From: Pomacea canaliculata
Taxonomy: Eukaryota > Mollusca > Gastropoda > Architaenioglossa > Ampullariidae
Reading direction: 5' to 3'
DNA length: 64,000 bases
Assembly: GCF_003073045.1 (NCBI RefSeq)
Contig: NC_037598.1
Coordinates: 13,368,486-13,432,485, forward strand
Part shown: positions 29,501-63,134 of the stretch, piece by piece
Position numbering within the stretch: the first letter of the stretch is position 1
Layout: every line of letters begins with the position of its first letter
Program-made: the position numbers and the translations under genes
The notes under the pieces: model-generated
Databases searched by the model: none
What the model saw: only the letters and a program-made list of their open reading frames with translations
What the model was told of the DNA's origin: nothing

Positions 29501-30471
29501 GAGGATTTGTTTATCTTGAACTCTTCTTGCCTTCTGATAGTTTGCACTAGGGAACAGTTTAGCTGTTGTTTTATCTCTTATCCATAATCTTTACTTTCAA
29601 GACGTTTTTATGACATCTACAGGCTTCTTTAAGCCAGGGATGCCCAACCTACGGCCCGCGGGCCATATCCGGCCCGCGATGCGGTCCCATCCGGACCGCG
29701 AAACTTCTGCCCTGAGTGCAGGAAATCGGCATGTTAGTAATAACAAAAAACCTAAAAAAAAAAAAACGAAAAAAGGGAAGAAGAAGGATTTATCCCTACG
29801 TAGGGGCGTCTCTCAAACTTTTTTTCGATGGACGAACATTTCGATTCAGTGCTCCGACTTGGTGTCTCTACGATGCAGCCGGACATTCAGAAGTTGGTTT
29901 CAGGTAAACAACTTCAAATATCCCACTAATTATTACATAATTAATGGCAAGTACAACTTGTTTCTAAAAAAAATGGTATCTGCTCTATTTTTTTCCTTTT
30001 TTGTATATTTGCGGCCGTGCCACGCATGTCGGAAATGTGTATGGCCCGCAGGCCGCAAAAGGTTGGGCATCACTGCTTTAAGCCATTCGTGAACATTCAT
30101 TTCTGGATGTTTTATAAATGAAGTGGAATCTTAAACGAGAACAATTCAGTACATATGAGACTATTGATTACCTGAAAGCTGCATAAGGGTTTAGTGTCAA
30201 AAATGTTTATTTACCTTTTCGAGAAACCAGTCAGGGGAAGAGCCACTGTTATCACGATAAATTCTGATAGCACATACGTCCTTGAGGTTAACCTGGTCGT
30301 ATACGCTGAATTGGTCTACAGAATTTTGCTGAAAATCGTTGCGTAATATATTGTCCAAGAATAAAGGCGGGGATTCTCCTCCATCAGGGTCAATCAAAAT
30401 GATGTGCACATCGGCGTTAGTACCGGCGTGCTCTTTATTCGATGTTTTTGTCCATATCCTCCAAGCTCTTC
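26554..30471 (-). CDS. PLAT/LH2-domain protein, copy 1 (5'-partial)
   Basis: Minus-strand exons: 30471-30215 (phase 1 in, phase 0 out), 26971-26848 and 26567-26554 (stop TGA). Exon 1 carries most of a PLAT (polycystin-1/lipoxygenase/alpha-toxin) beta-sandwich: HAGTNADVHIILIDPDGGES, then LRNDFQQNSVDQFSVYDQVN, then IRIYRDNSGSSPDWFLEK. Exon 2 finishes the domain with the usual F...W block (DRVFNVKSWVPT) and a variable end; the protein stops at PPCSAGPLE. PLAT domains bind lipids or protein partners, often at membranes. The 3' UTR runs to about 25.91 kb, where a poly(A) signal (minus-strand AATAAA, 25928-25933) is conserved in all three copies. A LINE and a hAT element lie in the intron. Upstream exons, including any signal peptide, were not identified. 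Confidence 0.8.
27950..29410 (-). mobile_element. 5'-truncated I/Nimb-like LINE insertion
   Basis: A 1461-bp insertion is flanked by the 9-bp duplication AAGATAGGG (27941-27949 and 29411-29419). The matching place in copy 2 (near 39752) has a single AAGATAGGG, so the empty site is visible. On the minus strand it encodes an RNase H domain (YVFTDGSKIPSG, then ECSIFIAELHAILLAL) at 29398-28841, and a C-terminal zinc-knuckle region (CPWCKGNFHVLDILIICPEL) near 28473-28285. Between them the frame is broken. The 3' end, at 27950, has a tail of AACAAATAAACAAAC character. Confidence 0.85.
28841..29398 (-). CDS. LINE ORF2 RNase H domain fragment
   Basis: A 185-codon open frame inside the inserted LINE. 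It contains the RNase H first-strand motif FTDGSK (catalytic Asp) and the Glu-bearing helix motif IAELHAILLAL, preceded by the thumb/connection region (LRRLKLMLSYVCCLKAHRGN). Reverse transcriptase and endonuclease are absent because of 5' truncation, so it cannot support its own movement. Confidence 0.75.
   Translation of the reverse strand: MPSASLLYKEAGEPPLSLRRLKLMLSYVCCLKAHRGNPAYRAVFRPQRAALYAIRTKEQKLLSLRVASHLQAAGVDINQVEPLSLQTTPPWTLPVPEIRFDLTAFKKEDISDPIYLQHFHELICAYSKFCYVFTDGSKIPSGGPVAAAAVPSCQPQRAVSVRLRDECSIFIAELHAILLALQHAH
29635..30075. mobile_element. Non-autonomous hAT element, copy 1
   Basis: A 441-bp element with terminal inverted repeats CAGGGATGCCCAACCT and AGGTTGGGCATCACTG (slightly imperfect), flanked by the exact 8-bp duplication CTTTAAGC (29627-29634 and 30076-30083). 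The subterminal GC-rich GGCCCGCGGGCC repeat is typical of Charlie/hAT elements. There is no transposase frame. The same insertion with the same duplication is in copy 2, so it predates the block duplication. Confidence 0.92.
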
Positions 30472-30517
30472 CTAGAAGACATCATCCATCATTCATAATC
30501 AGTCATCCATCACCCAC

Positions 30518-30518
<1 letters not shown>

Positions 30519-30584
<66 letters not shown>
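30519..30584. repeat. (ATC)n microsatellite, copy 1
   Basis: About 22 ATC repeats, located 48 bp upstream of the PLAT exon on the minus strand. The equivalent tract in copy 2 is the left boundary of the giant transposon. Confidence 0.95.
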
Positions 30585-40814: not shown

Positions 40815-40861
40815 CTAGAAGACATCATCCATCATTCATAATCAGTCATCCATCACCCACC

Positions 40862-40918
<57 letters not shown>

Positions 40919-42432
40919 CCCGATGCGACCCTGACTCAGTCCAAACAGTTTTCGTTCTCGCGACCTCGGCTGAGCCGAACTCCATTGCGCGCAATGGGCA
41001 ACGGATGCCGGCAACCCACCTACTCAGCCGCATCGTCTCACGAATGACTACAATATTTAGTCATTTAGAGTACGATGAAAAACGCCGAATTCAAGATAGA
41101 ACGACAGTAAATACGATTTTAAAATGCCTTTTATAAAGTTAACAGATGTAGTATGAAAGCAGAAGGAACAGGGAAGAAAATTAGGGAAACACGATCGATC
41201 GAATCGACCATACGTATATTTGCTTACTGTCGATTACCGAAGGGTCAACTCACAGCCTATAGCATTGAGAAAATCTTTTATTTTTGTCAATTATTTTTGT
41301 AAATAATGAAATAGGAAAATGTGCACACAAAGCTTTGTGGATTTGTTGGTATGGAAAGGTTGCTTCGGTGACGATGTACCGTATAGCGAATTAATGCCAG
41401 GGCGTCATTCCCTGTCGATTTGTTTTCCTTTTCGAAAACCCGACTAGTAAAGGTCGAATCAAGGATCGAACGACAGAATATTTGATTTTTAATTCTTTTT
41501 AAAAATGCAGCAGACGTTTTACAAAAGCAGAATTAATCAGCAAAAGGATTAAACACATCGGCAAACACGAAATTGACAGAATTCCTATACGTGCTTGCAT
41601 CGTGTAACGAAGGGTCAACAACACAGGCTATAGCACTGGGAGAAGTGCTTATATTTATAATAAAGAGAAAAAAAATGTCTAAAGAGCTTTGTGGAGTTTT
41701 TTAATATGTGAAAGTCTGTGTTGTTTTTATTTTGATGAGGAGTAGAGGTGGGGGGACGTCAGTCAGTGTCATTTGATTTCCTTTTCCAAAGAGTTCCAAA
41801 ACACGTCCAGAATGCTTTCTAAAAAGTATAGAGGCGGATCACAAAAGCAGAAAGAAACGTGGGGAAATTATATATTGTATGCACTATAATATTATATTGT
41901 TATCCTTAGTCTTTTAAGGTTCGATTTTCTTCTGGTACAAAGTTAGGAAGTATTTTTCTGTAAGGGAGGAGTCATTTCGATGTTCTCTCCTTAAAACAAA
42001 AGAAAAAGAAACAAAACCAAAAACTGGTTATTTAGAAAAGTAAAATTAAGAAATAAATCATACAAATAGATAAAACATGTATAATATCACCAAGAAGAAT
42101 TAATGTCAAAGCTAATGAAAACGAGAACCCCACTAATACGTGTCTCCCTGTTGGGAGCTCTTCCATTAGTCTCGGTGCGTCCACGTGTGTGTACTCGATT
42201 ATTAACTTCGTCATAAGCAGTTGCTTTCTTACTTTGTAGGTATTTTTTTTTTAATGCTTATGTATTGTCAGAGAGCAGTTTCGATTCCAGCAATGTTACA
42301 TCAGCTTGATGGAAATGCACTTCGTTCTTAGAACTGTTGTCATTAAGATTGTATATCTCCCACATGTACATAGAAGCGTTCATAACGTCTGTATTGAGTA
42401 TCGTACATGAAATAGGAATAGTAAGCGTTTAT
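40862..42432. repeat. Left terminal inverted repeat (~1.57 kb)
   Basis: It begins with about 18 ATC units, then CCACCCGATGCGACCCTGAC, and ends inside at GTAAGCGTTTAT. It is the reverse complement of 61553-63132, with scattered single-base and small indel differences. It contains about three degenerate tandem sub-units (near 41040, 41400 and 41765). The first two sub-units carry AACGAAGGGTCAAC-type and GGCTATAGCA motifs; the third shares mainly the TTTCCTTTTC and AAAAGCAGAA stretches. Confidence 0.92.
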
Positions 42433-42617
42433 AAAGAGTTGATAGCTATACATTATAACTGAAATTAATGTGGTGGTCATGCTACAATACATTTCATAAA
42501 TAAGCAAATGTGATTTGTATTAGGCCGTGTCTTGCCACTCAAATTGTTTACTTTGTGGTATTGATCTCGTTTTTCTCTCTTTTACTATTTTATGAAGACG
42601 CTTGCAGTGAATCAACT

Positions 42618-45600
42618 ATGCCACGGCCAAGAAAGTGGTATCCAGGTGGATATATTTCCTATATGGATAAACGCGGGCATGTTCGTCAGCGTAGGGTACG
42701 ATTTTCCTCGCAGGCTGTTAGGGCTTGTACGGAGGAAAATAGAACTCTTCAACAGGGGCAAAGTGGACGTTTAAGCACCCATCAACGGGAGGAATGTGCC
42801 ACCTTCCAGGATATTCTTCTAGATAGCAGTATGTATTGGAAAATTCTATCCAATTCTTACAAGACCTTTTGACATGACTACAGAAAATGTGAAATTAGTT
42901 TTCAACTGGACACAGTGTAAATATATGCATTTCATGTTTGAAAAGTATGATGATGTATGTTTTTATTTATACCCCTTCGTTTTTTTGTGTGTTAAAATAT
43001 AAAGACATATGTATTTATATATAGAAAGAGAGATGCTGGATAACCTACATGAACGTTTCTGTAAAAATACATGCTTTTTAATATAGAAAAGGAGATTAAA
43101 GTGCATGGAACATTAGAATGATAAACTTTGTTATCAGATGTAGTTAACTATCTTAGTTTCTAATATTGATTGAAAGTCAGACTCTTAAGCATTACATGTA
43201 CCATGGATAGATTCATCAGATGTAGCTGGAGTCAGCAATCACAAGAAGAAAAAAGTGTCTGAGGCTGAGGGCTGGAAAGATCTGCGAGCAGGTCTTGTTC
43301 GTGTCCACATTGAAGGATTCAGTCCTGCCACAAAAAAGTGCAGCTTCTGTGGCTGTACACAGGTCCCAGAGATTATCTGGTGTCCTGACTGTGGACCTAG
43401 AAGCCTTTATTGCAAGGCTTGTGATGAGAAGATCCATTGTTTGGTGCTGTATCATCAGACATACAGTTGGAAAGAAGTAAGTACAGTTCACAACATTTGT
43501 GGATAGATATTTTTTATAATGTTTTAGATTGTTATGTAAATGTAAATATACACCATGGGACTGGCAATTTGAAAATATATTCTCTCTCAATATATATTCT
43601 CTATTTATATAAGCACGTGGTTCAGAAAATCAACTGAAAGGAATCTGAAATGTGGTAAGACTTAGTTAATGTAATAACTGATACACCATTATGCATTACA
43701 GTCTCATGGAATGCACTTTTGATGAGGTTTGAAACTGAAATGAATTCCATAATTTGATTATGGCATATTTATAGACTTAAATGCTGCAAGCTTACATTAA
43801 AATTTGCTATTGTATTGTCAGGATGCATCATTGTTTGCACCTGTGTTAAGAGAAACAACCATTTTGTCTGAGCACCAGTGTGACAAGCTCTACTACCGTC
43901 AGATTACAGTTTTTGATGCACAAGGTACATATGCAAGATTATTATGTTTTCTAGAAAAACAGAGTTTACCCATGCATTTCTCTTAAATTTTTTTCACATT
44001 TTATTGTCATGCATTCAAAATATCACATTATGGACGAACCTTGCTTCACCAAAACAAACAAGATTGTGAATAAATGTTACTTAATAGATGTTAAATGTGA
44101 ATAAATGTTCACACTTCAACACTGTCACCAGTGACGGCTAGCTGCCCTGGGTTTTGCTTTCATCTTGAGCATGCAATTCTTTTTCTTCGCATGTGACATC
44201 TGCTTACAGGGCTGTCTGCTTTGCCAGACTTTATATTATTATGTATAACCTATTGTCACTTTTTGGTGTAAAGATTTATAAATTTTTTTTTCCTATGTTT
44301 ACTTTTATTTTTATTTTATAAATGAAAGCTCTAACCAGCTTTAACTTACAATTCTGAAAGGTAAGAATATTTACTTTACTGAATTACCTTATGCTGTAGT
44401 TTAACATGTAGTGAGGACATAAAAGAAGTAGGCAGTATTTTTGAACAATGAGAATATGTTGCATAATATTTCTGTAAGGGTAGAACAGTATCAAATACGA
44501 AAAGCACTTTTTTATGTTTTTCCCTTTATTATTATAGGCAGAGATCACACAATCAAAATGCAGTTTTGTGAGTGTGAGCCGGAAGCTGTAACGTTAGTTA
44601 GAAATGGGTTATGGCCATCAACTCCGAAGAAGCCAGAGACAGCATTCTGCATGAAACTAATGGAGCTATGCAGAATGCTACAACTAGAAGGGCAAATGTC
44701 TCTGCAGAAATTTTGTAATGCATTGCAGCGGAGGACAACATTTCTGCACAGTCACAGCAGGGACTACAGAAACCTGTATAAGGCACTGGGTAAACATGCT
44801 ATCATATTTTGTCACAGCATGACAACAGCAACATGTACAAGACTTGGTAAACACATCATCATATGTTGTCACAGCAGGGATTACAGAAACATGCACAAGA
44901 CATTTGGTAAACATATCATCATACGTTGTCCAACAAGTCTAACTTGCAAGAAACTACTCATGGCATATTGCTTACTGACTCCATAGAGAACTGTATCAGT
45001 GCCACTAGACCTGTAGTCAAGAAGTGCGACAGTTTCATTTTATGGATGTAAATATAGTTTAATTATAAGAGTTATAAGCCAATAATTTCAGTTTACATTA
45101 TTTGGAAAGTATGGACAGAATAAGTGGATTGTGAAAATGATATTTTATATGTTTGTTTAATGGTTTATTGCAGGTAACACAATTATAGAATTTCACCATC
45201 ATCAGGTGTTGTGCCTTGAAACAGCTCATGCCCACGAATTACTGGGCAAGAAGTGCCCAATATGTAGCCTGGTATGTTGTAAGGGTTAATGATTTGGCAT
45301 TTTAAGAAATATTTAAACACAGTTGCTGTATTCTGCAAACAAAAACACCCACAAAAGTATATTTACACTTTATTTGTACATAATATTTTCACATGGTGGC
45401 AATTTAAGCTGTTTAAGATATGCCTAATCTATGCACATCAGTTTCTTGATGTTTTGATATAAAGAAAATTTATTAACATTGTCTAATGCCTACTGATAAT
45501 GAGAAGATTTTTCAAAAACATATCTTCTATTTCATGATGCAAATACACTTTTGTTTACATCATTAAAAAACGTGTAAAATGTGGTACACATGTGTAATAC

Positions 45601-48600
45601 TAACAGTAACAATAAGATTATGGTCTGTTTTTTCACAGAAGCCAGAGAGACGTGTTATCTCGATGGACGCTAATTTTGGGCTTGTGCACAAGATGAATTC
45701 TGGATTTGGACCTGGACTTGAACATGCTAGATTTAGTGTGTTTTGTCCAGATGATGATGTCAGAAACTTTGTCAACACTCATCATGAGGCAACATCGAAA
45801 TCAAGTAGCAAATCTTCGGTGTGCACTATAATCTTATATTCTTTGTATTTCTTAAATTACTCTTTAGTGCAATATATTTGTATATGTGCTTTTATGCAAA
45901 TGGAAGTTATTGACTATGAGTGACTACTTTCATTGCAGGAATGTTCAAATTTTCAAGCAGGTGATCTTGTCAGGTCAAAAAACAAAAATGCAAAACTGGA
46001 CATCAGAGGAGTGTTTGGTGCTGTGTGTCAACATGGTTTCCCTCTGCATTTTGTGAATATGCAGCATGGAGAGAGGTAATAAACTTAATAAATAAATTTA
46101 GTAGATATCATAGTCTGATTAGTCTCCGAATGTGGAGTTGCTACTAAATGTGAGACAAGAAATCAATTTGATGAAAAGTGTTTTTTTTTTAATCATTCCA
46201 GATTTGGGTATCCTGTATATATTTTACAACAAATTGCTGCAGAGCAGCTTTGCACAGCTAGTACAAAGCAAATTGTGATGTATGATGTTGCCTGCTCACT
46301 GCAGGCTCATATAACAGTAAGTGATCCACCTGTATGATGTGAGACTGCACTAAATGTCTAATTTTTGCATGCATTCTAATGTAAACAGGCTACTTATTGT
46401 GTGAAATAATCTAGGTACTACAGTAGCTGGGTGGCTCCTATAAGTACTAGAGTGAAGGTTATCCAATAATTAAGCGACAAAACATTGTGCCATATGTAAG
46501 TTAAGAGTACATACATTGTTCTTTTCTTTTTATGTTCATGTAGCTGTGGTTGTGCAGTGGATAGGTGTGATGGGCTTATATTTTTTTGGCAAAAGTTTTA
46601 TTGTCAACTGTCAAAACAAGGATTACATTAGATGAGTGCCTATGAGTCTAGACAATTGAAGAATGACATACTCTGCATTAATCTCTGAGTGAAATTTCAA
46701 TCAGTACTTTATTGGATATGCCGTATTTCTTTATAGTTAAAAGAGTATGATTGTGACAGTGGAATCAGTCTGATTTGTGACTCTACATAAAACTAACTCT
46801 CAAAGGTAATTTTCTCTGTTTCATTTGTCTTCAACAGAAGCATTCTCAACTATTTGGACAGCTGTCTGAAAAATTTAGATTTGTTGTTCCTGTGTTTCAC
46901 AGCTTTGCACATATAACACAGTGTCAGGTAAGCCTTATGAAGTTAACATTATCAAGCTGTGTTAGACTCTTCCTTTTCACGTTAAGACAAGGCTTGTGCA
47001 TAATCTTGTCTTGCTTTAAAGTAACTACATTGCAAGTTTCTTTCCAGACGAAAAGACTGAAGACTTTTTTTGGTTAATCTTATATATTTTTTTAGAATAT
47101 TACTGATACATGTAGCTTGCAGTATCACTTGCAGTGCTTTGTATGATGAATGTCATATGTTTCTTGCTGTTGTAGATGACAAAAGGACAGCGCTTTTGCG
47201 AGGGCACAGGATTAATAGATGGTGAAGCTATGGAACGCTTATGGTCTTTCCTCCGCAGATTTGCGTGGAGTAAAGAAATGACTTTGCCCAACAGGCAAGA
47301 TCTACTAAGCAGTGCTCTGCTACACTATGCCAGGAGGATTTTTGTGTCATTAGGTAATTCTGTATAACTGCTAAGTATCTCAAAAGAAACTAATGCGAAA
47401 ACTTGAAGTACAGAAAATAAGCGCATGCAATAAATTTTCCTTTTGCTAGATCTCCTTTTAATTTTTTGAATCGTATATATTTACCATGTATTTTGAGTGC
47501 TTTTGGGGAAGTTTTTGACATGTTGTCCAAATTACCGTAATGAGAACCTTTTTACTTTTGTGTCTTCTGTAGCTGACACACTGTCTGTAAGACTCAAAAA
47601 GGCAAGGGACACGCAGGCAAAAGCCAAAGAGATTATCCATGAGGTTGAAAGCAAGTGTAAGGGTGTAGTTTATATTTCTAGTTCCACAAAGCATCAAAGA
47701 GAATATGCAAAACCCTCTCCATGTCTATATGCCTGTGCTGTTTTATTCATTTCATGTTGGTTCCAAGCCCACTTCTTGTAAAGATGAGTTTGTTGGATAT
47801 AATCTCTGGACAAAGTTAATCAACACTCAGAAGTAATATTTGTAGTAGTCTTTCCAAGAGTGGTGGTAATGCATCAGACATTTGTTTTCAGATAGAGGAA
47901 CTGCTGCAGAATGGCTGCACAAGCTGAAGGATACTATATCAACAACCAGTGGTCATAGAGGTATTATATCACCACTCACTGTGAAGAAACTTTAAAAAAA
48001 GTATAATACTGTGTTATGTTGCACGGTAAATCTTAGCAAAATGAGCCTATATGTTCATGTGCAACACAGTCATAGTATGGAAAGGTGTTACAGGCAGCTA
48101 ATGCATTGTTGACTTATAATAGATGAATGTTTTTAGTAGTTTAAAAATATATAAAGCTTGTCTTCATATAATTAAAGGTGGGTGCTTTTGTCGTAAGGTT
48201 TGTAAATAGATGGATGCACCTGTTGATTTGTAGTTAGAGCCTACCATGTGCAGTGCTGAAGTTTTATTAGCAAGATTATAACCAGCATTCCTACGAGTAT
48301 TGTACAATAACACTTCTTAGTTGTTTTTGTGTTAAGTAAAATATGATAAGTTAAAAGCTGAATATAAGTCGACATTATTTGTCATTTTTGCAGAAAGCTC
48401 TACCTCTGATTCTCTGCTTGAGAAAGCGAGGAAGCTGTCAGCTGAGCGGCAGCAACTGCTGGGACTAAAGAGACGCTATGCTGGTGTGTAATTTATTCCT
48501 TTCCTTGAAATGGTTACTGTGTTGGGTTAGTATTTTGGGAAAAGACAGTCCCATGGTACAGTGCTTGCCTTCACTTTGAGAGGATTAGGTATGAGAGGTT

Positions 48601-49448
48601 AATATCTCATGTCTGACTGATGCCTGTCCTCTGTGTATGCCACTTTTCACTGGATTACTATGAAAAGGCATTTGTTTCATCTCTAACATTATCAAAATCC
48701 CAAGTGAATATTAGGTTGGAATACAAGTGTCATTTTGCAAAATACTTTTCTGCTTTTCAAGCAGTGCCTGTGGATTCACAATTTGGTTCCATTAATATTT
48801 AATGGTAATTGTCACATTTGAAATTAAAAATCCAATATCTTTCATGTTACAGATGGACAAAAAATTGCCCAGAAAATTGCGAAGAAGCTGCGGACAACAA
48901 ACACTCAGCTGCAGTCTGTCATTGGGTCTTTAAAAAATGCATTTCCAAACATTTCACCAGCTGAATTTAGAGACCCAGAGTCAGCTCTGTACACTCATAT
49001 AGCACCAGAACTGAACTCAGAGCAAGTGAGGGCAGCCAATTGTGCAGCAGACTACGATCGTGGGAAAGAAGAGGAACAGCGAATAATTTATGACATTTGC
49101 CTTTTACAGCAGTGGCTGCTGGAGCAAAATGTGTTATTATGTCAGCCATCAGACTTAGTCAGTCGATATGAATGTGCCCTAAACCATGTTAAGTCTGTAA
49201 GTAAACATAAAGTGGAATGCCAGCTAAGGGATCTGCATGCGAAATTTAACGAGCAGCCAGGATTTTCGAAAGTCAGCATTGACTACTCAGTCTCCAACCG
49301 ACTGTCATCTTCAGCCTTCACTTGCCAGCCAGATTCTGATGACAACGAGGAATTAATAGATGTGATTAGGGAATTTAACTCAGATATCGAATCAGAATCT
49401 GATGAAGACGAGGAGGAGGAGGAGGAGGAAGAACACTTTTTGCCATAA
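42618..49448 (+). CDS. KDZ-family (Kyakuja-Dileera-Zisupton) transposase, 822 aa, 14 exons
   Basis: Exons: 42618-42828, 43211-43476, 43822-43924, 44538-44789, 45174-45271, 45639-45818, 45939-46075, 46202-46316, 46838-46927, 47176-47353, 47573-47656, 47892-47960, 48394-48483 and 48853-49448. All have AG/GT borders and every phase agrees, giving 822 codons plus stop with no internal stop. Domains: a basic N-terminus; a Cys/His cluster at 114-152 (C114, C117, C119, C128, C131, C138, C141, H146); the CxC motif CEC at 204-206; then the KDZ core. The core has SMDANFGLVHK (D320), GVFGAVCQHG (C400), HGER (414-416), YDVACSLQAH (D444), VPVFHSFAHITQC and GLIDGEAMERLW (E501). D320, D444 and E501 are candidate catalytic acids. 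The C-terminus has a Glu/Asp-rich run. ATG 42618 is the first start after a likely 5' acceptor (CTTGCAG, 42601-42607). The enzyme would cut and insert the element in the nucleus. Confidence 0.93.
44753..44929. repeat. Three tandem ~59-bp units across a splice donor
   Basis: Units 44753-44812 (60 bp), 44813-44869 (57 bp) and 44870-44929 (60 bp) each begin CACAGCA and contain a TTGGTAAACA/TGGGTAAACA donor-like site. The first unit spans the true end of transposase exon 4; the others lie in the intron and repeat the exon end plus donor. Confidence 0.85.
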
Positions 49449-51842
49449 GTGTTTGACCTTTTACTTAGTGTACTAAAGTGGACAATTGATATATTTATTG
49501 ATAGCATAGAGGTATTTAAGGGATGATACCATGTTTATTTTGTTTCAAAGCATTGCTACAACCAACCTCCATGATGTCTTTATGAATTCATTGCTACATT
49601 TTTGAACCAATAATGGTGTAATGTAATTCTTTTTTTAGCAATGTACTCTTTTTTTTTGTAGCATACATACAAGCCACATTCACACCTTGCATCCAGTTAC
49701 TTTAACCCACAGAAGCAAGCCAGTTAATATATTTTAATTACTTGGCAGTTAGCATGTCCCTTTTCATCTCACCTGTGCTTAAACTTTTTTGCCTGCATGA
49801 TTTGAGCTGTGATCATCACTCATTATGTTGATGCTTGTTTTACTGGTAACATGTGCCTTTCTTTTTTATGATGAATTTACTGAAATAGTGTTTGGTTCAC
49901 TTTTTGAATTTTAAGCTATTCAGTGAGCCACTCACTGCAGTGATGACAAGTGAGTGTTTTAACCACCACACTACCGGGTAGTCGAGTGGTCATCTTAATA
50001 TTGTCTACATTCTTATTATTAAGTGTTCCAAAAGTTCATTGGCCAGCCTGCTCTACAGATCTGAATCCCATTGAGCAAATTGAGTATCTATTGTTGAAAT
50101 GAATATTTTCTCCATTGGATTTGGTTTTGTTTGGATAAATCAGGGTGTTGAAAATGTAAATATTTTTATTACATTTGACAGAAAGATTAATTGTGTGTAG
50201 GTGGCAGGCTTGAAATAGCCATATTAACAGTGGTGATTCTCCTTTTACCATGCATACGACATGTTGAAATGTGTTACAACTTATCAACGAATTTAGCAGT
50301 CATTTTCAGAGTATTATGGCAAAAGTGAGAATGGCGTTTCAAGCATTAATTTTTTTTTTTTTTACATAAACAAAATGAAATTTTACACTCTGTCAAATTT
50401 ATAAAAATTTAGTATATTGATTGCTTCAGCAGACAAAAGTACCATAATGATTTGTCATTATGTATCTTTCTGCATCTAAATTTAGAAAGTCTTGCTATAG
50501 AATGATTTCAAGATTGGATAATTATGCATGGTCAATGCATAATTACTTTTCCTTGTCAGCTAGTTTAAAATGTTATTTACTGTGTGTAATATTAATTATT
50601 TTATCATGGTTTGTTCTCTCCTCATCAATCAGAGAATGGCCCTGAAATAAATCGTTCATACTTTCTTTTCCTCCGATATCACGTTTTTGATTTTTGAAAA
50701 TGTGGGTTATATCTGCCTAAGCAAAAATTCTTTTTAAAATGATTTGTTTCTAATAAATTGGACAATTAAATATTTCATTCAATGAATAAGGAATTGACTT
50801 GATTAAATGTTATTGTCTCTGTGCTTATTGGCATGAAATAGTGGTTGACTATACTAAACCATAGAAGAATCAGAGAAATTATACTTCTTGCAACAGTGCA
50901 GTCCACCATCAGTTGGTGCAACTTACCTTCTAGTGTTGTGGTGGCTTGCGCATCTTGTCGATCAACAGAGCGATGCCGGCAGGAGCCTTGTACTCCTGGC
51001 AGGTCTAACCAAGCCAAACAGGTCTGTCAGGGAAGAGGCCAGACTAAAATGTTGCACCCTGGCCCTCCAGGTTGAGGGGTTTGATTTTGGCTAATAACCT
51101 ACTCATGTAAAAAAAAAAAATAAATAAATAAAAAAAGCAGAGGAAGCAAAGAAGATTGGTTCAAAAGTCAACAGAAAAGGAAGGAGGGGGTAAGAAAAAT
51201 TGAAAGGTAGTGGGAATTAGAGAAGTAAAAAGTTATGTGAGCACACACACACTGTTTAGTAAAGACAGAGAATACACAAAAGTTATCACAATCAAGATAT
51301 TTACTTCCATTGATGAATCAGGACAGTGAATGGCATCTATGCATTGCAATTTTATTTATCCACAAGGGCAATAGCTGTCCTACAGTTATTGACTATACAC
51401 TAGGCCTAGGGGGTTAAGTGGTTTGTTCCTTGTTACTCCTCGAGGAGCATAGGGCAGCAAAACGAACGGGGTAGAAGGGGAAGGGAGAATGTTTTAAGCT
51501 GAATGTATCCCTGATTAGTTAGCGACAGTGACTTTCAATTCTGCGCCCTCTGTACCAAAAGTACAATCCACCGGGCCTTCTGCCTGCACGACAGGGTGCC
51601 TTGACAAGTATTCCATCATCGGTCTCAAGGTGATCTCTATGTCTGTCTGGGTCCCAACCCTGTGCCGCCCCTTTGGGTTCCAGCCCAGAGCTTGTCTTGT
51701 TAAATTGTCGGCCGGCTTTTACAAATAGTTAGGATGTAAAGACTCGTCTAGGGGAGTCCCAATGCTATCGTACTTCCACTATTCCAGTGCTGTTACCTCT
51801 ATCTCTGTCATTCGCGCTCACATGCACATCAACTAAGCTCTG
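49449..51842. other. 3' flank of the transposase gene inside the element
   Basis: AT-rich sequence with no exon. Candidate poly(A) signals AATAAA occur near 50648 and later. From about 51350 the composition becomes GC-richer, marking the start of nested inserted sequence that continues to about 53.4 kb. Confidence 0.45.
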
Positions 51843-52262
51843 ATGTTAAAGCTGTTCTTGCTATTGTGGGTTCACAAGGATGGTTGGATGGAGACCAATG
51901 CTTCAGCCGACAGTCATGGCACTCTTATGACTTTCCCTCGAAGTGTTGCTTCCGCCTGTCCGTCGTCCTTTCTGTCCGATCTGCCAACCTCGTCAGAGAG
52001 CGACGAAAGCTCTCCCGGTGACACAGAGTCGAGCCTGTCCCTGTCCAGGGAGATACACGTGGTGTCTTCGACAACTGCAATGCGACTTACAGTCGCTGAA
52101 CAAACACCATCTCCAAAGTCGCCAAAGTCCAAGTTTTCCGACTCCATAGAGTGTGGCGAACCCAGCAGACGTTCTCCTCCCTTGAGAACGACGTTTTCTG
52201 GCCTTGGCCTCGAACGTCTACCTCTCACAGGTAGTGCAAGCCCTGGTCACGTAGCCTTTTGA
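51843..52262 (+). CDS. Ser/Pro-rich open exon of unknown origin
   Basis: A 139-codon open frame on the plus strand whose composition looks like a disordered phosphoprotein: SSFLSDLPTSSESDESSPGD, then TPSPKSPKSKFSDS, then TFSGLGLERLPLTG. The last is followed by a GT donor context (CTCACAG|GTAGTG, at 52230). Upstream, GGTTCACAAG|GATGG could be an acceptor near 51880. I do not recognise the family. The reverse strand is also open over 51914-52228, so a coincidental frame cannot be excluded. It abuts a minus-strand LINE fragment, which may have carried it in. Confidence 0.35.
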   Translation: MLKLFLLLWVHKDGWMETNASADSHGTLMTFPRSVASACPSSFLSDLPTSSESDESSPGDTESSLSLSREIHVVSSTTAMRLTVAEQTPSPKSPKSKFSDSIECGEPSRRSPPLRTTFSGLGLERLPLTGSASPGHVAF

Positions 52263-53350
52263 TTTCCACGGCGACAGCAGGCAGTCCTGACAGTTCTTCG
52301 TCACTAAATTCGCCCCGTTGCTCAAGGTTCTCTAACTCAAGCGTCCTTCCTCCCGAGTCTTGCCCTCTTGACATGACCCGGTCTCGTGATACAAGTGAAG
52401 TCGGCCTTAGATATGCTGAAGTCGCTTCGATCGCAGCTTCTTCTGAGATCCGAGTGAGCTTTGTCTGTGCGTGTTGTTGCTTGTGGGACAACACGCTCAT
52501 ATCATCCGCAAAGTCTAGATCCTCAAAATGCCTGGCGAAGGTCCTCTGAACGCCCGTGTTGCTGTTAGAGGTTCTTCTCATGACCCTGTCTATGACGATC
52601 AGACAGATTGTCGGCGAGAACGTACAACCTTGCCTCACCAGTCCTCACTTCGAAGGGGTTGTCAGCTGTCCGTTGTGGATCACCTGGCATGTCGAGTTAT
52701 CATACAACTGCTGAATGACGGCAATGAACTTTGGAGGAAATCCGTAGTGCTGCGTCAACTTCCAGATTGTTTCCCTGTCTAAAGCGTTCTCAAAATCCAC
52801 AAATGTCATGCATAGTGGCGACTGCCATTCAATAATAAGTCGCAGCCTGTGCATGATTTACCATGGCGAAAACCTGCCCGTCCTTGCCCAATCTCTTGTC
52901 TAGGGCATTCTCCAGTCTCTCCAGGATGATTCTGGTTAGCACCTTAGTAGGAATGGACAATAGCGTGATCCTAGGTCAAATGGTGCACTGGGTCAGGTCG
53001 ACTATTTTTGGGTAGCTTTACTAGGTTGCCAAGCTTCCAGCCTGCTGGAACTTGCTCCTGTTCCACATTTTCTGCAGCAGAGTGTGTAGCATCTCCGCTG
53101 CGGCTGTTGGGTCTGCCTTGGGTGCTTCTGCAGGAATGCCATCTGGGCCTGCCACCTAGCCGGAATTAAAAGACATGATGGCTTTAATGATTTCTGCCTT
53201 GTTTGGTGGGTTGGTGTTTATTTGGAGCTGTTTGGCCGCTGGGGCAATGTCCAAAGTGGTTGTTGGTGGGGGTTGGTTAGGTATTTCATCAAAATGTTCC
53301 ACCCAGCGAAATCTTTGTTCTGCATTCGTGGTGATGACGCTGCCATTCTT
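52263..53350 (-). pseudogene. Nested RTE-like LINE reverse-transcriptase fragment
   Basis: Minus-strand blocks in order of translation: GPDGIPAEAPKADP near 53150-53090; LIIEWQSPLCMTFVDFENAL and FIAVIQQLYDNSTCQVIHNG at 52854-52645; then MRQGCTFSPTICLIVIDRVM and LDFADDMSVLSHKQQH at 52638-52450. These are the GPDG, FVDFE.AFD, QLYD, RQGC..SP and FADD blocks of RT. The FADD active site survives, but several frame changes break the gene. It lies wholly inside the KDZ element and is thus a nested insertion. Confidence 0.8.
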
Positions 53351-55513
53351 ATTCGTTATTGGTATTTTCCTTCCTTACAGAATTCTTGTAAATTCGTATA
53401 GTCTATTTGTGTTATTTCGCCCAGCTGCTTGTCATCCCCTTCTGCCATTCTGTATGCGAAATGTTCTTGTCACCTCTTGCACTCTTCTTCACTTCTTGGT
53501 TTATCTCCCAGTTCTTCTCTCTGAGCTCCCTTTTTCCTACTGGCCTGTCACAGACCAGTCCGTGCCTCCAGTGTTTTTCAGACTATTTAACCCTATTGCG
53601 ACTCAAGGACTAAAAATGTATTTTGAATGTATGGCTGAGTGAATGAAAACATTAGATAGGAAAGGGTTAACTTTGACAATAAGTGTTTCGTGAACACAGC
53701 TCACCAGTAGATTTTGCCGGGAACGAGTTGTGAAAAATTACTCAGGCCTGGGATACCGGAAGAAGAAGATGTGCCCGAGTCACGAGTTGTAAATCTCCCG
53801 CGTTGAGATTTGTGTACAGTAGACTAGGGTACAGTGTCGATCCACGCAAGATGCGGCGCGGCACTGGCCCGTTTTTGGATTAACCTCGCCTAGACGAGGT
53901 ATGACATCTTTTTTCTGTTATTGCTTATGACATTGTATTGCTGTTTCAAAGTTGTAAAGAAGAACACGAGAGAAAGATGTGTGATTTGGAGAATTGGGGA
54001 GCCTCCGGCAATCGTTTTGTTGTGTTTTGAAAGAACGCGCATTTGTCTGGCGTGAGTTAAGCCACCCGAGCCGTGACATGGTCTTGACATTGTTTGATCT
54101 TTTGCTAAGCTGTTTCCTTTACTCTATCTTTTGTCAGCTCCATTAAGTCAGCCATTGCTTAATTTTGCCGTTTCTCTTTCTTTCGCACAAACCCATTAGT
54201 TAATCATGTCTTGTCACCTTAATATCATTTGAATGGGAAAAGAGATGAGGGTCTAGCTTTGTAAATGGTTGTGCTGTTCTCTAGTGTTCAGTGTTATGGT
54301 ACATATGCTGTCCCATGTTGAATGTGCGTAGTATCTTAACTACTCTGCTATTATTTTACCAATCAACGTCAGAACAGGACTATTGCAAAACTTTGTGAAA
54401 ATAGTCACAATTCATTCCACAACAAATATCTACTCATTGCAAAAATGGTCCACTTTGAAGGCGTCTTTATCCAGATATGTTATTTTAGCTCTTCTGCAGC
54501 CTTTCCACACAAAAAATTTCCTTGTGAAAATGTTTACTTATTATTACATGACTCCACTGTCACTTGCTCATGGATCTGCATATATAAAGACCACAGGTCA
54601 ATTATAATCAAAGAAATGAGCAGTTTGTGAACTGATTTTATTTTAAAAAGACAGCAAAAAAAAAAAAAAAAAAAATTCAAAATTAAAACACTCCTCTGTG
54701 TCGATTCTGAATCCTGAAAGAGAGAAAAAAGACACACCATGATTTGCCAGCATCAAGGAGCAGCTAGGGATGTCGGTATGTGTAATGATTTCATGACATT
54801 TTTGCTTGCATTTTTGCATTGTTTACAAGGTAATGTACAGGCGACTGAAGGAGAGAGGATGTTTCCTTCCATATGTTATGTGTCTATACATAAATGCCTT
54901 TGAGACCAGCAAAAAGGGTGTTACTGTTATAATCAACTAAACTGTACAAATAATGTGCAAGTCAGACCCAAACTTAACATGTTTTATGATGTTCTCATTG
55001 AGCAGGGAAAATTGAGATATCCAATGTCAGATTTAAATTATTTGACATTTTCAGATTCACTATCCTAATCAATTCTGCTTTCAAACTCCAGTAGCTGGTT
55101 AAGCAGTTTACACACATTTTTATCACATATGTGATAGTAACAACTGATAAACTAATAGAATGTATGTCCACAATATGATTATTAAATAAAACTGAATAAA
55201 AAGTGAAATCTCTAACATTTCACTTCTTAATGACATAACAATTCTTCTTTTTCTTGTTCCTATTTGCCCATGGATGTTTTACCTTAATTGACTTTGGATG
55301 TGTTCTCTTTTCTGAAATAAGAAGCAAATAAAAAGCAAGAATTAATATTACCAAATGCATTTCAAAAATATGAAGCCGAAAAATTAAGACACTAGGAAAA
55401 TATGTCCTTCACTTTCAGAACAGAAATTTGCCAGCTAATCTTCTTTGGTTCTGATTACACATGGAAGCATGCAAGTAAAAGAAAAAAGTGTATTTTCTAA
55501 ATCTGTGTAGCAC
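53351..55513. other. Gene-free stretch between nested LINE and passenger gene
   Basis: No exon is recognised. An A-run lies at 54656-54675. The sequence from 53400 to 53640 is open in two frames but has no family signal. The 3' UTR of the convergent minus-strand gene probably lies at about 55.0-55.5 kb. Confidence 0.4.
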
Positions 55514-58500
55514 CTATAACAGGTGAGATTGTTCTGGTTCTATAATGTCTTGCACTTGCCTTCTTCTTATCAAGTAATTCTGGACAGCAGCCGGAGTCCT
55601 TTGGAAATTTGAATTCCTTAGAAAGCTCTTTATGTCCTGCATTCGGACCGCCCTCCTTCCATTCAGTTCATCTGCAAACTGCTTCTGAATGGTTTCTACT
55701 TCTGCAGACGACCAGCAGCTTTTCTCTGTTCCTGCACAAGAAATCAACTAGCATCATATTCTATAGCCAACCAAGTCAAAATGTCTCAATCTACTAAGGA
55801 CACACAGATCGTTACCTAGTACGTAACTGAATACGTCAAAGCATTTTCACTAAACCTATGTGTGATTAAAGATCCTAACTAAAAGATAACCAATTAGCAT
55901 AAGATCAGACCAAGCAAATCGTTTCTTAAAATGTCCATTACCCTTCCGAGCTTTTTTTAAGACAGGTGCTTCAGAAGTCCATCCAGTGGTGGTCTTTCCT
56001 CTGACTCTTGGATGACTTTAAAGAAACAGAGAAAACCAAACTAAGAAATCCATTAAATAATTTAAATAATATATCCCTTGCAAATCTGCAGAAGGATTTT
56101 ATGCTCCATGAAGGATCACAATTAGTGAAATTATGAGATCTTATTCTAATGCATTCTTGCACAGAATGTCAAATGCACAATTCTTTTCAAATATTTACTT
56201 GCATACAAGAGAAATCTCTGTATATTGACCAGGGTTATCAGCACACCAGATGCCTCTTCATTTAGCTGATTGATATATAACATTACTCCATCATCACTCA
56301 GACTAAAGGCGCTTTCTATAAAGGCATGCAAGCCAATGGATTTGGGACAGGTATCACTTTTCATTTATTGGCTGTAAGCCTAGGGGAATTTTTGCCCATA
56401 ACATCATATCAAAACAATCACCCAATAACAAACTAACATGTGCAACAGATGGTGACAGTATGGCAAAATATATATGAGTACATAAGACAAAACAATATAT
56501 CTATATAATTTACTTCAACTGTGGTAATGCAATTTGAATCAATTTGCATAAATTTATATGTATTTGGTTTGATGTAATATTCATCACCCGATTACATTTT
56601 AATTCATTTGGATGATGCACAAAATCAACATGAACCAGCACTGTCTGTGACAAAGTTAACAATGGGTGAGCATAATAATAAGCATAAGTTAACACAACAA
56701 GAGCACATTAAGAAAATGCCAAAAGCCTGTTCACAAGAAATGACACAGGAAATACTAATCTTACTTTGGGCATTTATGAATTCTGTTAATGGGAATTCCA
56801 CAGGAGTAGTATTAGTCCCATCTGTAACAGATTAAAACACTGCTTTTATAAGAACAGCCAAGGCAACAAACTGATGAATTTAGTATTGTAAAGTCTGAAA
56901 CCTAGTGAAATATACTCTCAATTATTATACCCAAGTTCACAATAATTTTACACTAACTCTTACACATTGATTGTATGACACAGAAAGAAGAGGATGAGTG
57001 GATGTAAATAAAAAAAAATCATGCCATGATCAGCGAGTTTAAAGGTATGAAAAACAGCAAACATCTCGATATTGTATGGCAGGGTTACAGCTAGTAATCT
57101 ATTATGTGAATGTTATGCATTTCATGTTTTCATCAGTTTTGGCTGTGATTTGGAATCAGCATAGTAGTGGTACAGGGAAAACAACAATCTCAAGCTTTTG
57201 TAAAATATAATAAGGTACTTCCATTATTGATTTATATAACTAATCAATGGCACTGACTCGGGCCTACACATTACAATGAGCATGTATTTTATTATCCAGC
57301 AGCGCCTTTATAGGAAAAGGTCGTTAGCTCTGCCCTAAGGACCACAGTTCTTGCTTTAACCCTTTGAGGTACCCAGCATTGGTAGCCCTCACCAGCACAA
57401 TTCCATAACACAGGTAAGCTACATAAAATGGTGTCAACCATAGGGGTAGAATAAACATATGAACTACTGGCCACTGCTCTTATACTATACTTGCATACTG
57501 TAATACTTCATGCATTTGGTTCAACATTTTGGTCAATTGACACCAACAATAACTGTTAAACATACCATCTGGCTGATGTTCTATGTTTGTGATAAGCTGG
57601 CTGTCTGAGATAAGCTGGCTGTAAAAAAAACAAAACCCAACACATTAACATTTTTACAATCAGCAAAAATGGAAAATGACTCACAAAGAGCACATGACAC
57701 ATCCACAAATACATTCACTTTGATGTATTTGGCATACACCAGCCCCCACTTGCACCCAATCAATTTTCACATGCAGTCATACGGTACGATGCAAAACTTT
57801 GATTAAAGAAAATATCTTTCATAAGGAATCAGTCAAATGGTGAGACATTTGTAACAAGAGAAATTGTTCATGTAACCAGAAAAATCCCAAATAGGTTTTA
57901 ATGATTACCTCTGGAACTGCCCCTCTGTGGCATGACCTGGGGTTCTCCCATCACACATTTCTGGAGTGTTGATGAGATGTGACATTTGGTTTATGTCTAA
58001 TGTGATGTTTGTATGTGTTGATGTGTTATTTAGAGGTTGTGTTTGTATTTCATGTAATATGCTTCCTGTTGCTTCATTATTTTGCATATGTTGATGATTC
58101 ATGTATAAGTTGTGTTTGTTGTAATGTGTTCTCTGGTGCTTCATTTTCTGCATTTGCTATTCGAGTTCCATGTGAATGTACTGGTGCTGGTAATGATGGT
58201 GCTCTGCAAGAAAAAACAAAAATTGTAGTACAGCCAGTTATAATGGGTTTTATGTCCACAAAGGGCAACATGGCTATTCTCAAAACAAATAAAAATGTAA
58301 TTAACTGTAGAAAGAACCAGATGAGCAGAAAAATGCTTCACTATTCTAAGTAGGTTGTCTTTTATATTACATGTATCCTTTATTTATCATTCAATATATT
58401 TCTTGCAAATTTATGGCACATGCACACTATATATGTACATAGAGTGAACAGAAATTTCTAACCCAGACACAAAGGTTACTGATAAAGGAAAAGTTAACGG

Positions 58501-60756
58501 ATAATACAATACCCATTAAAGCTATCATTTCATAATAATAACATATCATTACAATCAAGCAAGCAGTACGCCTCCACAAAGTTTAAAGCGCATGTAGAAC
58601 AGATTCAATTCAACAAAGCATTGTCAGCAGAACTTCATTAATTAGAAGAAAATATGTACAGTGAGGTACAGATGAGTTCTTGAATCTAGTTTAACCCGTA
58701 GACCATGCCCAAGTTGTTGAGTACCTGGTGACAGTGACTTCACAGTCAAGGATTTTTTGAAGCTCCTTTGTGGCCAGCTTTCCAGGTGGCTGCAAGGGCA
58801 TTAAGGAAGGGGAATTCCATGGATGATGATTTCCCCTTTCTGGCCCTTTCATAAGGGAATAGGCTCAGACCAAGTTGTGCTTCTGTTAATATAAAATCCT
58901 TGTCAATATAGTCATACAATATTTCGATTACCTGTAAAATCACAATATCTGGCTAAAAAAACCCAACACAAAACGAATATGTTACAGCTACTGAGATAGA
59001 ATCATAGATAGCTTGTGATAATAAACATTACCTAGATCCAATTACTTTACTGTTTGTATTAGCTTTCCACCATTACATAATGTGCAAAACTTATACTAAG
59101 TTTGTGATTGTTTTCAGCATTCAAAGAGGTCAAATATGTACTAGAAACCACAGCTCATGCTGTTCTTCAAACAAGATATTTCACATACTTGCAATTTTGG
59201 ACATTTTAGCCATTACTTTTTCTCTCAAATCCTGGATGCTTCCCCGCTTCACTGCAAGACAAGTATGTTGTAAAAGCTCTAAACACAGCAATCACATGAC
59301 GACTAGTACTTCAACGCACACATTTTTGTTCAACACCTTAAAAGATCTGACACTTAAAATAAAGAGACAATATCAGTACTCTCATATTTAGTAAGCAAAG
59401 CATGAAACTCAGCCTTGCTGCATTAATGTCCTTTTTAAGGATTTTGATTATGCAACATTCTTTAAAAAAAAGCAAAACAAGAAAAAAACAAAACAAGTGT
59501 AAGTTTCAACATTTGACATTACACAGATCTTTTATGTAAAATGCAAAACAGTAATGGGAGAACATGTAAGATGATGTTTGACAAGTACCAAGTCCCAGAT
59601 TTTCCATATTTGAATATGCCGTAATGAGGTTGCATATTTGTGGGGTCTGGCTGAGACCCTTCATATTTCCAAATTCAGTAAAATGAATATTACAGTTCTT
59701 TGACGTTATAAGGCAGAGGCCCTCTACTCCACTTTTTTTTACTTCTTCTTCATTTTCCTTCAACAGTAAAAACTGTAAAACGAAATGTTACTATAATATT
59801 CACCACAACCAATATAATCACTAATATTTCTCATACATGGTTAATGGGGCACTGTACAAATGAGATAGTCAGCATTAAATTTTAGTTTTCATAGCAAAAG
59901 AGTTTTTTTCTCAAATAAGCTATACTCAAACAAAATATCTTCCACAGGATAAGCAGTGGTTAAATAATCCCAGTTAGGATAGTTATCAGCTTTAGTAGAC
60001 TATTTCCAAATGAATAACATATTTAAATTGAATAATCCAAATAAAATGTAATAAAGTTTGCAAGAAAATAAAATGCATCTAAATTTTTATTTTTCCATTG
60101 TCATATAAAAAACAACTAATATTCTATGTAGACTTAAGCAAAATACAGCACACAAGTGTAATAATATTGATTACTTACCATGGAATGGATGTTTTTGATG
60201 ATTGCTTTTATATCAATCTTTTTATTCCTTGCAGCCAGCGCTTTACCTGCATACTCGTTTTTTGGAGGCATCTGTAAGTTGCCTCCACTGATTGCCCCAT
60301 TCAACAGCTTGAAAGCCCCCTTGTGGGTTGGCTGGGAACACCAAAAACACATACACACTCTACTGTAAGGACATTGTCAAACAGACGATATGCACTCAAA
60401 TACAGTTCTGAAATTAAACAGTGTTACATAGAATGTCGGCTGCCAGAACAAATGGATTCATAATTAGTTAAATACTGCTTAAGTCAAGCAGACCAAAAGT
60501 ATAGAAAAATATTCAACCAGGAATGTGCACTGAGACCTTAGTAGAATTTATACATTTACGAAATTTTGTCTAGCAAATTAAAAGCCTTCATTATCATGCA
60601 ATACACCCAGGCATCACCTGACTCGGGAATAATTTGAGATTATTGTATCAATCCCCAAAGCTTCTCATAACACTTAACTAACATCTTTCTAATTCTTTCA
60701 TGCCTACTTTCGCAGCTTGTACTTCTATTTCTTCAATCGATGATAATGCATTCTTT
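55514..60756 (-). CDS. Passenger gene with C-terminal SANT/Myb-like domain (multi-exon, model incomplete)
   Basis: Candidate minus-strand exons: 60756-60708, 60331-60179, 59772-59589, 59251-59189, 58952-58725, 58203-57909, 57618-57566, 56356-56199, 56015-55942 and 55731-55514 (stop TAG). Phases agree for exons 1-4, 5-6, 6-7 (after a one-base shift) and 9-10. The last exon, KSCWSSAEVETIQKQF...IKSFL...RTPAAVQNYLIRRR, has the W..EV..I...F......RT...VQ.Y layout of SANT/Myb-like DNA-binding tails of transposon-associated proteins. Exon 2 (GAFKLLNGAISGGNLQMPPK, then NKKIDIKAIIKNI) looks like a compact helical domain I cannot name. The middle is Ser/Thr/Gln-rich. Problems: the exon 4-5 phase clashes, exon 5 seems to change frame near 58810, and exon 6 needs a one-base shift near 58090. 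It may be a decayed gene, contain sequencing errors, or have missing exons. Confidence 0.55.
57240..57545. other. Unassigned insert-like segment in the passenger gene
   Basis: A GC-richer stretch between passenger exons 7 and 8, open on the minus strand at 57474-57292 but with no family signal or splice context. It may be a small inserted repeat. Confidence 0.3.
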
Positions 60757-61552
60757 CTATAAACAATATATATATATAGATATTAATATATAATTATGTC
60801 ATTAATACACTAAAAACATTTGAGACTATGATGTATGATAAGTAAAATAGAACAGTGCTTCAATGCATGCAATTATTGTAGTATAATAGCTGCTGAGCAT
60901 ACTTGAGATAAAATAAACCTACCCTTCAGCTTTTCACTGCAGAACACATTGAAAGACGTAGTTCTTCTGACAACTGGTTCCATTGTCTACACAAAAAAGC
61001 AATATTTGTCTGAAATTTATAGCTCTGTATATCTCAATGTTACAAGGTATAGTTGTTTTTGTTTTATTGCAATGTATTGTAGCATGACCTCCACATTCAT
61101 TACAGTTATAATGTATAGCACTCTTTATAAGTGCAAGCTATCAACAAGGTTTCAACTGTTCCACAGTTAACAATAAATCACAGATTTTGGTTTTGTGTTT
61201 GGACTGGGGATGTGGCTATCAACTTTCTATGTCTATTCAGTTTTCTTTAATTCAATATACTACATATATAAGCACTTCTTTGCTAAAAAAAAAACAAAAC
61301 AAAACTAAAATCAAAAACAAACAAACAAACAAATAAACCATTTCAGTATACATGGTAATTTCAGCAGAAGAATCCTTTCGATAAAGGCCACATGAATGGC
61401 TTTTTTATAGTACAGTATTTTACTGGTATTCTTTTAGTAACCAGAACTGCGATCGCATTTAATCCTCTTAAATAAGAAAAATAGGTCGGGAGACCGAGCG
61501 GAGTACATGTATATAATTACTTTGAAGCCTATAAGCCGTGACCTAAATTTAA

Positions 61553-63081
61553 ATAAACGCTTACTATTCCTATTCATGTACGATACTCAATACAGACGTT
61601 ATGAACGCTTCTATGTACATGTGGGAGATATACAATCTTAATGACAACAGTTCTAAGAACGAACTGCATTTCCATCAAGCTGATGTAACATTGCTGGAAT
61701 CGAAACTGCTCTCTGACAATACATAAGCATTAAAAAAAAAATACCTACAAAGTAAGAAAGCAACTGCTTATGACGAAGTTAATAATCGAGTACACACACG
61801 TGGACGCACCGAGACTAATGGAAGAGCTCCCAACAGGGAGACACGTATTAGTGGGGTTCTCGTTTTCATTAGCTTTGACATTAATTCTTCTTGGTGATAT
61901 TATACATGTTTTATCTATTTGTATGATTTTATTTCTTAATTTTACTTTTCTAAATAACCAGTTTTTGGTTTTGTTTCTTTTTCTTTTGTTTTAAGGAGAG
62001 AACATCGAAATGACTCCTCCCTTACAGAAAAATACTTCCTAACTTTGTACCAGAAGAAAAATCGAACCTTAAAAGACTAAGGCTAACAATATAATATTAT
62101 AGTGCATACAATATATAATTTCCCCACGTTTCCTTCTGCTTTTGTGATCCGCCTCTATACTTTTTAGAAAGCATTCTGGACGTGTTTTGGAACTCTTTGG
62201 AAAAGGAAATCAAATGACACTGACTGACGTCCCCCCACCTCTACTCCTCATCAAAATAAAAAACAACACAGACTTTCACATATTAAAAAACTCCACAAAG
62301 CTCTTTAGACATTTTTTTCTCTTTATTATAAATATAAGCACTTCTCCCAGTGCTATAGCCTGTGTTGTGACCCTTCGTTACACGATGCAAGCACGTATAG
62401 GAATTCTGTCAATTTCGTGTTTGCCGATGTGTTTAATCTTTTTGCTGATTAAATTCTGCTTTTGTAAACGTCTGCTGCATTTTTAAAAAGAATTTAAAAA
62501 TCAAATATTCTGTCGTTCGAGTCCTTGATTCGACCTTTACTAGTCGGGTTTTCGAAAAGGAAAACAAATCGACAGGGAATGACGCCCTGGCATTATTCGC
62601 TATATACGGTACATCGTCACCGAAGCAACCTTTTCCATACACAAATCCACAAGCTTTGTGTGCACATTTTCCTATTTCATTATTTACAAAAAAATCATTG
62701 ACAAAAATAAAAGATTTTTCTCAATGCTATAGGCTGTGAGTTGACCCTTCGGTAATCGACAGTAGCAAAATATACATATCGGTCGATTCGATCAATCGTG
62801 TTTCCCTAATTTTCTTCCCTGTTCCTTCTGCTTTCATGCTACATCTGTTAATTTATAAAGGCAATTTTAAAAATCGTATTTACTGTCGTTCTATCTTGAA
62901 TTCGGCGTTTTTCATCGTACTCTAAATGACTAAATATTGTAGTCATTCGTGAGACGATTGCGGCTGAGTAGGTAGGGTGTTGCCGGCATCCGTTGCCCAT
63001 TGCGCGCAATGGACATCGCTCAGCCGAGTAGCGAGAACGAAAACTTTTTGGACTGAGTCAGGGTCGCATCGGGTGGATGAC

Positions 63082-63132
<51 letters not shown>
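61553..63132. repeat. Right terminal inverted repeat (~1.58 kb)
   Basis: It starts ATAAACGCTTAC and ends GTCAGGGTCGCATCGGGTGG, then ATGAC and about 18 GAT units. It is the reverse complement of 40862-42432 apart from scattered differences (for example one GTC within the GAT tract). Both repeats preserve a 54-codon open frame (plus strand here, 61770 onward; MTKLIIEYTHVDAP...), which may simply reflect recent common origin. Confidence 0.92.

Positions 63133-63134
<2 letters not shown>

Follow-up and report, generated by a model that had tools for sequence, protein, structure and literature searches.

A giant KDZ transposon of Pomacea canaliculata and the apparent preference of its lineage for CAT microsatellites

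The 64,000-nucleotide stretch of the Pomacea canaliculata genome analysed here (the window; contig NC_037598.1, below C9) contains a well-preserved giant KDZ DNA transposon of 22,159 bp, which was rightly recognised in an initial annotation made from the sequence alone. From comparison with related copies across the assembly (440.16 Mb in 24 contigs), we regard it as quite probable that this is a recently mobile cut-and-paste element of a lineage with a preference for (CAT)n/(ATG)n microsatellites already present at the insertion site. Insertion into CAT microsatellites, unmentioned in the initial annotation, is the most unusual feature of the element and a new, testable property of the lineage. 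The element, its ends, and its immediate surroundings are as follows, in window positions; loci elsewhere are given by contig and position.

40917..63075, + strand: KDZ element with A-type ends (5'-CACCC...GGGTG-3'), 22,159 bp; copies elsewhere switch from common sequence to microsatellite at these positions, and the C7 copy is alignable over 20.6 kb
40917..42432, + strand: left terminal inverted repeat, 1,516 bp, from arm-versus-arm alignment
61553..63075, - strand: right terminal inverted repeat, 1,523 bp, 97.07% identical to the left, from the same alignment
40862..40916, + strand: host (CAT)n microsatellite abutting the left end; the paralogues at 30521-30590 and C9:13337700-13338500 carry it unbroken
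63076..63134, + strand: host (GAT)n microsatellite at the right junction, uninterrupted in a paralogue near C9:25449975
29411..30572, + strand: element-free paralogue of the left flank (39749-40916), 97.2% identical, from self-alignment of the window

Element ends and CAT microsatellites

The sequence common to the copies stops at CACCCGATGCGACC, at 40917 and 63075, so the outer limits given in the initial annotation (40862 and 63132) were too wide by 55-60 bases per side, the outermost 55-60 bp being host microsatellite and not element. Between the corrected arms (40917-42432 and 61553-63075) there are 12 mismatches and 30 gap openings (97.07% identity), and with the outer microsatellite included (40862-42432 against 61553-63130) the identity is 97.1% over 1,591 columns, with 13 mismatches and 30 gap openings. 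The inverted repeats are thus real, at an identity well above the level of about 80% below which the initial annotation would have given them up. The left arm has at least 48 matches in the genome at 75-100% identity, fragments included (a lower bound, as only part of the candidates was scored), and many of these can be paired as inverted ends with 13-28 kb between them, which excludes a chance origin of the repeats. The left arm also holds a short direct repeat (82%; 41399-41437 and 41752-41790), and a scaffold gap of 100 N lies outside the element at 14413-14512.

Searching the whole genome with the terminal 23-25 bases, allowing up to two mismatches, returned ends of three related subfamilies: 22 of A type, 17 of B type, and 11 of C type, with no matches for any type in a reversed control. 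The termini are CACCC..GGGTG in the A and C types and CACCT.. in the B type. Under a strict rule requiring at least five CAT-family triplets of one strand within the 30 bases outside the end, 40 of the 50 ends lie in a CAT/ATG run (A 17/22, B 15/17, C 8/11), against a background of 280 of 41,597 window positions outside the element (0.7%). The corresponding binomial P of 1e-77 is overstated, since the copies are related, two runs were counted from both sides, and the background comes from one window. The ten ends that fail the strict rule include three C-type ends in compound ATG/GTG runs and two ends in degenerate runs (L063, L027); two more lie in the terminus of a C-type element (L057, L058) and three in ordinary sequence (L069, L070, L074). 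Where A-type and B-type ends lie in tracts, the run meets the element as ATC or as ATG/GTG at 28 of 32 (P 3e-10; exceptions L032, L033, L076, L077), while the eight strict C-type ends divide into three ATC, three GTG, and two other phases. An ordinary giant KDZ element without target specificity, linked to CAT through survival in neutral repeats or through assembly bias, would be consistent with the five ends that lack a tract and with the behaviour of other KDZ elements, which hit genes such as the FRR1 reporter (PMC12810828, in the text available). However, selection would hardly produce so strong a bias towards CAT among neutral sequences (40 of 50 ends against 0.7%) or fix the junction phase, and we consider this explanation very improbable.

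Element-free versions of the flanks carry the same runs. The left flank has, besides the paralogue within the window (29411-30572), a second at C9:13337700-13338500 (99.0% over 606 bp), and in both the CAT run continues into other sequence; a more distant paralogue (82%) at C9:13461600-13462400 is likewise empty. In the paralogue of the right flank, C9:25449105-25449975 (95%), the GAT run is uninterrupted. Since element-free paralogues of both flanks carry the runs, these predate the insertion, and for the window copy the microsatellite is ruled out as a part of the element. Both observations expected of microsatellite targeting, ends concentrated in one type of run (40 of 50) and empty sites that bear the run, were therefore made. 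The left flank is part of a cluster of local duplications, which comprises several copies in direct and inverted orientation: those at 25646-30572 and 36110-40916 of the window, and others between about 13.29 and 13.52 Mb of C9.

The runs could in principle be a part or product of the element more generally, if its ends carry or prime their own CAT/ATG run, or if circular intermediates carrying filler repeats enter the runs by recombination, as has been speculated for the plant SaTar elements (PMC5907723, in the text available). The long runs at the ends, the sharing of one run by two elements (L011/L056, L024/L052), and the inconsistent agreement of run orientation with a single target (6 of 10 pairs, below) would fit such an origin. 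We nevertheless find it improbable, because the element-free paralogues of both window flanks already bear the run, some ends lie in ordinary sequence (L069, L070, L074), and the junction phase is mostly fixed. The two shared runs, at C6:8.3818 Mb (L011/L056) and C3:7.0847 Mb (L024/L052), each have an A-type and a B-type end back to back across one CAT run.

For preferential insertion into pre-existing runs we propose the following mechanism. The KDZ protein would excise the element at its CA..TG ends, and the element would be pasted at a staggered cut inside a CAT run with duplication of 7 bp (CATCATC, or GATGATG on the complementary strand), and this would account for the ends meeting the run as ...ATC or ...ATG. 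Where one end joins the run at ATC and the other at ATG, the duplicated length must be 1, 4, 7, or 10 bp. At C6:26918283-26932771 an A-type copy has the 7-bp sequence ATCAAGA on either side as a direct repeat, with differing adjoining bases. A search allowing up to three mismatches found no uninterrupted site for this copy. The 8-bp duplication of Zisupton was considered and rejected, as it fits neither the phase at the two ends nor the 7-bp ATCAAGA. The sequence round this copy was at one point taken for a small non-autonomous element and is instead a C-subfamily terminus.

Comparison with the closest copy points to recent movement, as the initial annotation had proposed. A copy on C7 matches window positions 40878-61425 (20.6 kb) at 99.2%, with 13 substitutions over about 20.2 kb (7, 2, and 4 in three stretches), the remaining differences being indels, mostly of one base; so few substitutions suggest that the element moved recently. 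This copy is interrupted at its right arm by a gap of 100 N. A C14 copy aligns at 98.0% over 8.9 kb and is noisy (86.8%) beyond a 100-N gap of its own. A 14.2-kb relative on C2 was rejected as a shorter autonomous copy, its middle holding no long open frame of either gene of the element.

Flanks of the window copy

Several observations weigh against a simple picture of targeted insertion. The left and right flanks of the window copy match two different microsatellite loci. One insertion into one run should leave CAT reading from one end and ATG from the other, and this orientation is found in six of ten like-ended pairs (C2:38.09, C11:23.40, C14:18.58, C7:1.52, C5:14.22, and C7:26.00) and not in the other four (the window copy, C3:39.26, C3:7.07, and C21), nor in either unlike-ended pair (C6:8.36-8.38 and C6:1.06-1.09); the count of six in ten, which leaves out C9:1.54 as unscorable and C6:26.9 as nested, is compatible with chance. 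A tract is entirely absent from five of the 50 ends, two of which lie within the terminus of another element, and the ends are not an independent set, as they include near-identical copies and two tracts counted from both sides. Finally, the 7-bp repeat was seen at a single copy, whose empty site was not found.

Because its flanks come from different microsatellite loci, the window copy appears to be a chimera, and the initial annotation's description of one bounded unit fails for this copy. The chimera most likely arose by misassembly, an artefact that the initial annotation had listed, for the repeat arms, among the outcomes that would refute its reading, and less likely by recombination between copies. 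The published assembly (440.07 Mb) was built from PacBio reads averaging 10.1 kb (PMC6129957, in the text available), and with reads of this length misassembly is the simpler reading. The true partners of the window flanks would show, beside an element end, either the sequence that continues the left site or the one on the far side of the right site, and none of the loci fetched does. Alternatively, though we doubt it, two copies embedded in microsatellites may have recombined ectopically to give a genuine window copy, so joining distant loci in vivo. The left and right empty-site paralogues have different far sides, there is no N gap inside the window element, and elements with unlike ends exist, at C6:8359919-8381778 (C and A ends, about 22 kb) and C6:1057134-1085447 (A and B ends, about 28 kb), which may be hybrids or may themselves be assembly joins. 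On the other hand, the mean read is under half the length of the element, the C7 and C14 copies are interrupted by 100-N gaps, and the excess of one-base indels over substitutions relative to C7 in the second gene (below) points to consensus noise in the window. The flank arrangement of the window copy should be confirmed with longer reads before it is trusted.

The KDZ transposase and the second gene

The element carries two convergent genes with a nested fragment between them, as follows.

42618..49448, + strand: KDZ transposase gene, 14 exons, 822 residues, equal to LOC112572667 (spliced frame, Pfam, and public protein match)
KDZ exons 1-7, + strand: 42618-42828, 43211-43476, 43822-43924, 44538-44789, 45174-45271, 45639-45818, 45939-46075
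KDZ exons 8-14, + strand: 46202-46316, 46838-46927, 47176-47353, 47573-47656, 47892-47960, 48394-48483, 48853-49448
52225..52644, - strand: nested reverse transcriptase fragment resembling a long interspersed nuclear element (RVT_1, E 1.7e-5, 25.1 bits, under the Pfam cut-off of 29.6)
About 60983 to 55514, - strand: gene 2, a putative set of several exons (open exon pieces; relatives C0Q70_10896 and LOC112561826)

The initial annotation's reading of the first gene as an intact-looking 14-exon KDZ transposase with cysteine clusters is borne out. The 14 exons, joined over GT-AG introns, give a single frame of 822 residues identical to P. canaliculata LOC112572667, in which Pfam finds the KDZ domain (PF18758, E 2.9e-39, 135.5 bits against a cut-off of 26.6) and, all above their cut-offs, CxC2 (E 4.3e-15), CxC1 (3.2e-13), and CxC3 (1e-6). 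Across 18 aligned relatives, E504 and H402 are kept in all 18, D499 and E501 in 17 (one gap), D320 in 16 (two gaps), and D444 in 16 (one gap and one F); these conserved acidic and histidine positions we take to be catalytic. Bivalves, a limpet, Hydractinia, and a tunicate have relatives at 34-38% identity, and fungi have others at 20-23%. A profile search of the PDB found no KDZ relative of solved structure, its four weak matches being coiled-coil or filament proteins. The reverse transcriptase fragment lies within the stretch that the window and C7 copies share, and so it appears to have been carried along with the element.

The second gene proposed in the initial annotation recurs with KDZ genes elsewhere. 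A search with its paralogue P0020 gave 43 genome matches. The 17 KDZ genome matches fall at 15 loci, and 8 of these (C21, C7:14.5, C7:17.8, the window locus, C3:22.4, C8:23.7, C14:19.0, and C3:19.6) have a gene 2 match in convergent orientation, on the other strand and 7.9-18.6 kb from the KDZ match; the KDZ scores at C21 and C7:14.5 are identical, and these two loci may not be independent. Because this layout recurs beside the KDZ gene, gene 2 is a genuine component of the element. Among the matches listed, none to gene 2 falls at the other seven KDZ loci, of which C14:18.6 is interrupted by a gap; several gene 2 matches, for example, those at C4:24.83, C4:32.31, and C7:18.57, in turn have no KDZ match listed in their vicinity. 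An unplaced contig of 63.9 kb holds a C-type element of 23.3 kb (C21:20569-43895) in which both ends are present along with matches to KDZ and gene 2.

In the window, gene 2 is interrupted by one-base shifts. Over its 5.7-kb stretch the window and C7 copies differ by 4 substitutions and 44 one-base indels, and the extra base is absent from the C7 copy at both shifts that were checked (near 60258 and 58083), so that the breaks look like consensus errors; alternatively, they may reflect decay of one copy. The relatives found for gene 2 are two proteins, both from P. canaliculata, with none from another species. No Pfam domain was found in it above the cut-off, NCBIfam gave nothing useful, and an HMG box that seemed likely by eye fails the cut-off in both the window reading (E 0.33) and a composite reading (E 0.025). 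Gene 2 probably assists transposition by DNA binding or target choice, although this is a guess. A stronger version, in which this is a giant two-gene KDZ lineage with site-specific CAT integration, gene 2 is the targeting factor, and the elements stack, swap flanks, and repeatedly join distant loci, we consider unlikely; stacking and flank exchange would follow there from a target that is itself a repeat and from copies of 13-23 kb that are near-identical.

Significance and comparison with known elements

The choice of target by KDZ elements has been little studied, and KDZ transposases have no solved structural relative by sequence in our PDB search. A lineage whose target is clear and repeat-based, and in which a second gene recurs, offers a concrete system in which to ask how a transposase picks its site and whether a partner protein does so, and it raises the question of whether, in an animal, trinucleotide runs offer very large elements a safe haven. 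A warning follows as well, namely that assemblies from 10-kb reads may join the wrong flanks at long, near-identical elements in microsatellites. In the open-access literature searched (with subscription papers and Repbase outside the search), no report of KDZ elements targeting microsatellites was found.

The size, introns, and extra gene, which the initial annotation counted in an unusual combination of features, all have KDZ precedents (PMC12810828, PMC9297572, and PMC12477816, each in the text available); giant, intron-rich, gene-carrying KDZ elements with nested insertions are already known. For example, the KDZ elements of Ectocarpus are up to 30.3 kb long and those of Chlamydomonas up to 31.7 kb (PMC12477816), and they share with the snail element a giant size, nested elements fixed among copies, and extra genes; the available text of that report mentions no microsatellite preference, whereas the snail lineage sits in CAT runs. 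The Cryptococcus elements KDZ1-3 (PMC12810828) likewise combine KDZ and CxC1 with inverted repeats, but they are 9-11 kb long, with inverted repeats of 139-241 bp, duplications of 4-8 bp, and an insertion in the FRR1 gene (KDZ1 itself has 11 kb, 241-bp repeats, and 8-bp duplications).

Of the initial label "KDZ/Zisupton-like", the first half holds by Pfam and the second is not borne out. Zisupton elements of fish, fungi, and nematodes (PMC12730594 and PMC9297572, in the text available) resemble the snail element in the KDZ domain, many exons (18 and 31 in the Pristionchus genes; PMC9297572), and terminal inverted repeats, but their duplications are of 8 bp, whereas the snail junctions allow 1, 4, 7, or 10 bp and one copy shows 7. 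By its CA..TG termini and the 7-bp direct repeat in that copy, the element appears to resemble the fungal Kyakuja more closely, which has a KDZ transposase, 5'-CA..TG-3' termini, and 7-bp duplications (PMC12730594, in the text available). It differs from those fungal families, which have no terminal inverted repeats, in its repeats of 1.5 kb, and no TET/JBP gene was seen in the snail element as far as we looked.

For the target itself the nearest parallels come from other superfamilies. SaTar/AgS-MULE (PMC5907723) and MuTAnT (PMC4486113), in the text available of both reports, are DNA transposons that lie in microsatellites, stack end to end in one run, and show target duplications where the site is not a microsatellite, but they belong to the Mutator superfamily, in plants, and the runs they occupy are for the most part TA or mixed. 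Among animals, a precedent of a different kind, cited in the available text of PMC4486113, is a helitron-like element of Lepidoptera found in (GAAA)n.

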